DNA from: Chitinophagales bacterium
Lineage (GTDB): Bacteria > Bacteroidota > Bacteroidia > Chitinophagales > JADJOU01
Direction of reading: 5' to 3'
DNA length: 36,333 nt
NCBI GenBank assembly: GCA_030832185.1
Contig: JAURJQ010000012.1
Location: 1-36,333, forward strand
Positions 65 through 145 of this stretch are shown one piece after another. A program made the translations under genes and the position numbers. A model generated the notes under the pieces. That model made no database searches and was not told where the DNA came from. It saw nothing but the letters and a program-made list of their open reading frames with translations. The stretch's first letter is position 1. Each line of letters starts with the position of its first letter.

Positions 65-145
<81 letters not shown>

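Follow-up and report, generated by a model that had tools for sequence, protein, structure and literature searches.

Among the described systems that come closest to the locus presented here is the phage GIY-YIG enzyme SegB, which is associated with tRNA genes, cleaves within them and, through recombination, causes tandem amplification of the segment made up of tRNA and nuclease gene (PMC13096335). SegB and the free-standing GIY-YIG homing endonucleases of T-even phages share with our locus a nuclease gene that adjoins tRNA genes (PMC13096335). In contrast to SegB, the arrangement reported here is carried on chromosomes of Bacteroidota, encodes a protein of about 100 aa with putative cleavage activity, comprises one lineage per tRNA isotype, and places the gene just behind the tRNA, together with a hairpin-tagged remnant of that tRNA. 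Another example is provided by REP palindromes and their RAYT (Y1) transposase, with which our locus shares short GC-rich hairpins that are dispersed between genes and flank an enzyme gene (PMC3733652). Here, however, the enzyme is a GIY-YIG nuclease instead of a Y1 protein, the hairpins are anchored to tRNA genes and have CCG..CGG stems, and no Y1 (RAYT) transposase was found at E ≤ 0.001 in the draft genome, which is 99% complete. Integrative elements that enter tRNA genes by a tyrosine integrase keep an intact tRNA, carry a 3' tRNA fragment at their far end and may form tandem arrays. The intact tRNA, the far-end 3' fragment and the possibility of arrays are shared by our locus, but it has no integrase, a junction hairpin replaces part of the tRNA, and the units measure only about 0.3–0.5 kb. 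The UPF0213 GIY-YIG proteins (BH0048, EF2693) have in common with the nuclease a single domain of about 100 aa, and its best matches among solved structures are 1zg2 and 1ywl, at weak similarity (E 4e-4). A group I intron with a homing endonuclease is not supported, since the adjoining tRNA is uninterrupted and an Rfam scan of 31900–32700 gave no match to an intron family.

The window, that is, the whole stretch of 36,333 nt that was analysed, is the entire contig C6 of a 2.2 Mb draft genome (G000). A 16-bp palindrome, TCCCGCACGTGCGGGA, occurs in it exactly at 120–135 (site 1) and 32527–32542 (site 3), and with one substitution, as TCCCGAACGTGCGGGA, at 32063–32078 (site 2), precisely where a previous sequence-only reading had placed it; no further copy was found in the window within 3 mismatches, and 100 shuffles gave 0 matches. 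As RNA, the palindrome corresponds to a hairpin of -10.2 kcal/mol. It was also borne out that each copy sits in a defective tRNA copy adjoining an intact tRNA and, for sites 1 and 3, that the replaced segment measures 8–10 bp. The intact genes are tRNA-Ala(ggc) at 213–286 and tRNA-Asn(gtt) at 32120–32194 (Rfam tRNA 72.8 bits), the latter being the presumed target; the tRNA features, repeats and nuclease gene given here with coordinates lie on the + strand, and no strand is assigned to the palindromes. At site 1, the palindrome stands in place of CGAATCCG, 8 bp of the T arm, in a tRNA-Ala(ggc) copy (65–146) with tRNA positions 1–55 at 100% identity. Bases 1–119, which hold the upstream region and the 5' part of tRNA-Ala, form a direct repeat 100% identical to 149–267, and because this array begins at contig base 1 it may be incompletely assembled.

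Site 2 lies in a shorter, decayed copy of tRNA-Asn upstream of the intact gene (32039–32092), and its mismatch looks derived, given that G002 has a perfect palindrome at this site. At site 3, the palindrome replaces CATCTGACTG, the 10 bp forming the 5' half of the anticodon arm, in a tRNA-Asn remnant (32508–32582) whose 5' acceptor strand has diverged and whose Rfam tRNA score of 23.4 bits is under the cut-off of 29. A 72-nt repeat comprising the 3' part of tRNA-Asn and a terminator is found at 32155–32226 and, 100% identical, at 32543–32614, where it starts exactly after the site 3 palindrome. The TTA that follows the palindromes in the window is not part of their unit. Both tRNAs have it in their own sequence (TTATCC, TTAATC), and elsewhere the next bases after the palindrome are TGG, TAG, AAC, TTG or TCC. 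A target-site duplication was ruled out on these same grounds.

The segment separating the intact tRNA-Asn from the site 3 copy holds a gene that the sequence-only reading had missed, encoding a 101-aa GIY-YIG nuclease (32241–32546; PF01541, E 6.7e-15). It is the sole open reading frame of at least 100 aa between the tRNA and its remnant, and no integrase gene is present inside the element. According to the translation, its C-terminal residues LAQLVRVPHVRD and the stop codon are read from the pseudo-tRNA and the palindrome. Sites 1 and 2 have no nuclease gene, and the only other GIY-YIG match in the genome falls in a 602-aa open frame of UvrC size. The nuclease genes of G000 and G002 differ at 5 nonsynonymous and 8 synonymous positions; dN/dS, estimated from this small number, is 0.13, and the gene seems to be under purifying selection. 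A phage origin was ruled out, as no relatives of the protein were found in viral contigs.

The neighbourhood formed by a kinase gene and tRNA-Asn is kept over much of the order. At this locus, the nuclease unit was found in G000, G002 and G003, with a distant relative in G043, and it is absent from G001, whose kinase is 93% identical, and from most other members of the order. G004 and G005 cannot be judged for the downstream unit because their contigs end 58 and 0 bases after the tRNA. The upstream copy (site 2) is present in G000–G003 and absent from G004 and G005. Hairpins occur at the places of both site 2 and site 3 in sister-species assemblies, by which an assembly artefact at these two sites was ruled out. 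G001 does have a nuclease copy, accompanied by the same palindrome, at another place where a contig ends. Pseudo and intact copies show joint changes in their acceptor stems, suggestive of gene conversion.

Homologues of the nuclease were identified in 142 of 296 Bacteroidota genomes, and 125 distinct loci from 89 genomes were surveyed. An intact tRNA on the same strand ends at most 300 nt upstream at 93 of the 125 loci, against 0.33 expected from tRNA density, with a median gap of 57 nt between tRNA and nuclease gene, and a fragment of the local tRNA follows downstream at 80. Placed right after an intact tRNA, the element comprises a small nuclease gene and then a partial copy of the tRNA, where a short hairpin stands in for a few bases at a fixed position. 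A dozen tRNA types in Bacteroidota carry this layout, and the 5' half of the tRNA is missing from most remnants linked to a nuclease gene. By our own score, a GC-rich hairpin is present in the truncated copy behind the gene at 44 of 61 distinct junctions (40 of them at p<0.05 versus shuffles), a score that 13 of the 61 corresponding segments of the intact tRNAs, with their native arms, also reach. Thirty-two of the junction hairpins are of the CCCG..CGGG type, and the elements of tRNA-Met, Lys and Val tend to have their own stems. Within an isotype, the hairpin tends to keep its position from family to family (Asp 59/60, Ala 44/45, Met 47/48), and in Gly it is at 56/57 within one family. Tandem arrays are often seen, following tRNAs for Phe, Asp, Asn, Pro, Met and Ala; for instance, seven units containing CTCCGAAGCTTCGGAG come after tRNA-Phe and five containing TCCCGACTAGTCGGGA after tRNA-Asp. 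The judgement that the palindromes reflect a defined, repeated product associated with tRNA genes instead of random decay is upheld, with 0 copies expected by chance in the window. What the sequence-only reading had also missed is that this arrangement recurs, with differing hairpins, at many tRNA types across the phylum.

Linkage to tRNA as a general property of GIY-YIG genes was ruled out, since a tRNA was found at 0 of 19 large, UvrC-like loci. A tRNA lies nearby at 4 of 6 Chlorobiota loci. Outside Bacteroidota and Chlorobiota, eight small-gene loci (L314, L316–L318, L320, L331, L333, L341) and the larger L319 were surveyed; a tRNA is near two of them, with tRNA fragments at neither. As a separate observation, L178 (G090:C14), where no intact tRNA occurs within the stretch examined, has an array of ATCCCGACACGTCGGGAT hairpins, mostly at a spacing of about 68 nt, between three GIY-YIG open reading frames.

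A tree was built from 89 nuclease domains, with few columns and weak deep support. The isotype of the neighbouring tRNA changes 24 times on it, compared with a mean of 60.9 after shuffling, and 0 of 200 shuffles gave a value as low; host family changes 40 times on the same tree. Twelve Gly(gcc) nucleases form one group, and another group of 20 rows, 18 of them Asn, extends across at least seven host families. In the genomes with several elements (G223, G319, G345), the copies group mostly with same-isotype copies of other hosts. The nuclease lineages inferred from this tree, with its weak deep support, follow tRNA isotype across host families, the pattern expected of target-specific homing enzymes.

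Several features of SegB-type systems were found together, namely the GIY-YIG domain, a gene beside its presumed target, lineages that follow the target and alleles free of the element. By analogy with SegB, we consider it reasonably probable that the site 3 palindrome is the right-hand end of a tRNA-anchored, isotype-specific, homing-type GIY-YIG element, and the GIY-YIG gene is likely the driver of the tRNA-linked arrangement. The nuclease would cut the DNA of its tRNA gene near the position of the hairpin, as SegB does within tRNA genes, and recombinational repair from an element-bearing copy would insert the element while one tRNA stays intact; repeated rounds would yield tandem arrays. 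With the hairpin in it, the remnant would lose its cut site and escape re-cutting; the nuclease may also recognise the hairpin as a structure. Sites 1 and 2, as well as the Ala(tgc), Ile and His copies in the genome, would represent gene-less remnants or non-autonomous units. Several points speak against this homing model: no nuclease gene accompanies sites 1 and 2, some hairpin-rich genomes have no small GIY-YIG gene, Y1 transposase also correlates with the hairpins within families, the tRNA left whole next to the element ought still to be open to cutting, and most copies of the palindrome worldwide lie outside tRNA sequence, which pure tRNA homing does not explain.

The wider distribution of the palindrome was followed first in the window's genome, where eight copies with at most one mismatch were counted. 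Five are in tRNA-like sequence and three are not (C1:8409, C31:20150, C24:143150), so that the absence of copies outside tRNA, as asserted before, holds inside the window and fails genome-wide; the earlier interpretation survives as to a defined product and falls as to a restriction of the 16-mer to tRNA sequence. Sites of the form TCCCG..CGGGA number 20 in this genome, against 1 for a reversed control pattern, a dispersal of short palindromes known from REP/RAYT systems. By our reading, eight of the 20 are in pseudo-tRNAs, located on C4 (Ile), C6 (three: Ala, Asn, Asn), C27 (Ala), C28 (two, Ala-tgc) and C29 (His). In a public genome collection, tRNA-like flanks accompany 11 of 96 low-GC copies among the matches listed, compared with 9 of 1000 random windows. 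The flanks of low-GC copies share inverted or direct repeats of at least 8 nt in 12–13% of cases, against about 1% of cross-paired controls, and high-GC matches, mostly actinobacterial, gave no clear excess of flank repeats.

Some surroundings of these palindromes may be recorded on their own account. At C1:8409 and C31:20150 (L001 and L005, the palindrome being at 1501–1516 in both), the palindrome is part of a dispersed repeat of about 150 bp (..ttgtatttcaatcttttagaaatattgaaac..cggggttaaaccca..) without a tRNA or obvious gene, which could be a separate small mobile element or a structured RNA; a related locus is G002:C51:11593 (L017). At L094, L125, L028, L136, L046 and L076, the 16-mer is at the loop place of a longer hairpin, some of these being terminator-like, as if it had been inserted into the loop or had replaced it. 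At G000:C27:1–600 (L308) and on C29 (L310), tandem pseudo-tRNAs have other palindromes in place of arms, such as CCTGTCTACCGACAGGCAGG, TCCCGATAGCTATCGAGA and TACTGACGATAAATGTCAGCA.

A broader and more tentative possibility is that isotype-specific GIY-YIG nucleases recognise short CCG..CGG hairpins in addition to their own tRNA gene, forming a system like REP/RAYT with a different enzyme class, which would carry both nuclease units and hairpins without a gene to tRNA arms, terminators and repeats throughout Bacteroidota. The homing-type reading is in turn supported by the hairpin counts: genomes that carry the nuclease exceed the control pattern by a median of 10.5 TCCCGN6CGGGA sites, those that do not by 2.0 (Mann-Whitney p 2e-14; family-stratified permutation p 0.0002), the counts per genome including hairpins inside nuclease arrays. 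Ten hairpin-rich genomes had initially been scored as devoid of small GIY-YIG genes; a re-check with the full Pfam model recovered such genes in 7 of them, the exceptions being G176, G204 and G069, and found them in 4 of 12 genomes without such hairpins, one of these 12 (G318) having already been scored positive.

It is rather unlikely that a Y1 (REP-associated) tyrosine transposase moves the palindrome as a dispersed, REP-like hairpin, with the palindrome landing in tRNA copies because hairpins and repeats attract it and the GIY-YIG gene being incidental. The prevalence of copies outside tRNAs, often inside inverted or direct repeats, agrees with such a mechanism, as does the occurrence of Y1 transposases in 209 of 296 genomes, where their number tracks the hairpin excess within families (t 4.3), nuclease and Y1 both contributing. 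However, the presence of Y1 makes no difference in genomes without the GIY-YIG gene (medians 2 and 2, p 0.94), the nuclease still matters in genomes without Y1 (median excess 6 versus 2, p 0.04), and the fixed order of nuclease, hairpin and tRNA is left unexplained. As no such transposase was found in the window's genome, the elements were classed as homing-type nuclease elements and not as REP/RAYT.

We regard as improbable the proposal that the copies with a hairpin serve a function as tRNA-like decoy or regulatory RNAs, kept from translation by the hairpin. The site 1 copy (65–146) retains its upstream region together with the acceptor stem and the D and anticodon arms, and its fold puts the palindrome where the T arm would be, at -33.1 kcal/mol against -24.7 for the intact gene; site 2 is kept in four congeners. 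Against this stand the missing 5' half in most nuclease-linked remnants, the variable length of the arrays and the absence of the nuclease unit from G001. An origin from ordinary duplicated and decaying tRNA genes, in which local mutation produced the palindrome, is hardly credible even with tandem duplications and decayed copies present, given 0 window copies expected by chance, the 20 genomic sites against 1, and a position and hairpin type that recur per isotype across families, a recurrence that already contradicts it.

In open-licence papers, to which the literature search was limited, no description was found of palindromes or GIY-YIG genes in Bacteroidota tRNA genes; the family of tRNA-isotype-specific GIY-YIG elements thus appears to be previously undescribed, on a provisional basis. 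If the homing-type reading is true, selfish chromosomal elements founded on tRNA genes would make up a family spanning the phylum; their target specificity could be read from the adjoining tRNA, and about a hundred small nucleases from nature would each come with a predicted target. The reading would further account for pseudo-tRNA arrays and contig breaks in Bacteroidota genomes, as well as for unusual protein ends such as LAQLVRVPHVRD, and would extend the tRNA-amplifying role of phage SegB to bacteria.

Elsewhere in the window, at 10653–19895, a 3080-aa open reading frame contains nine SprB repeats and a C-terminal type IX secretion signal domain; it is likely a gliding-type surface adhesin, and both features fit Bacteroidota.
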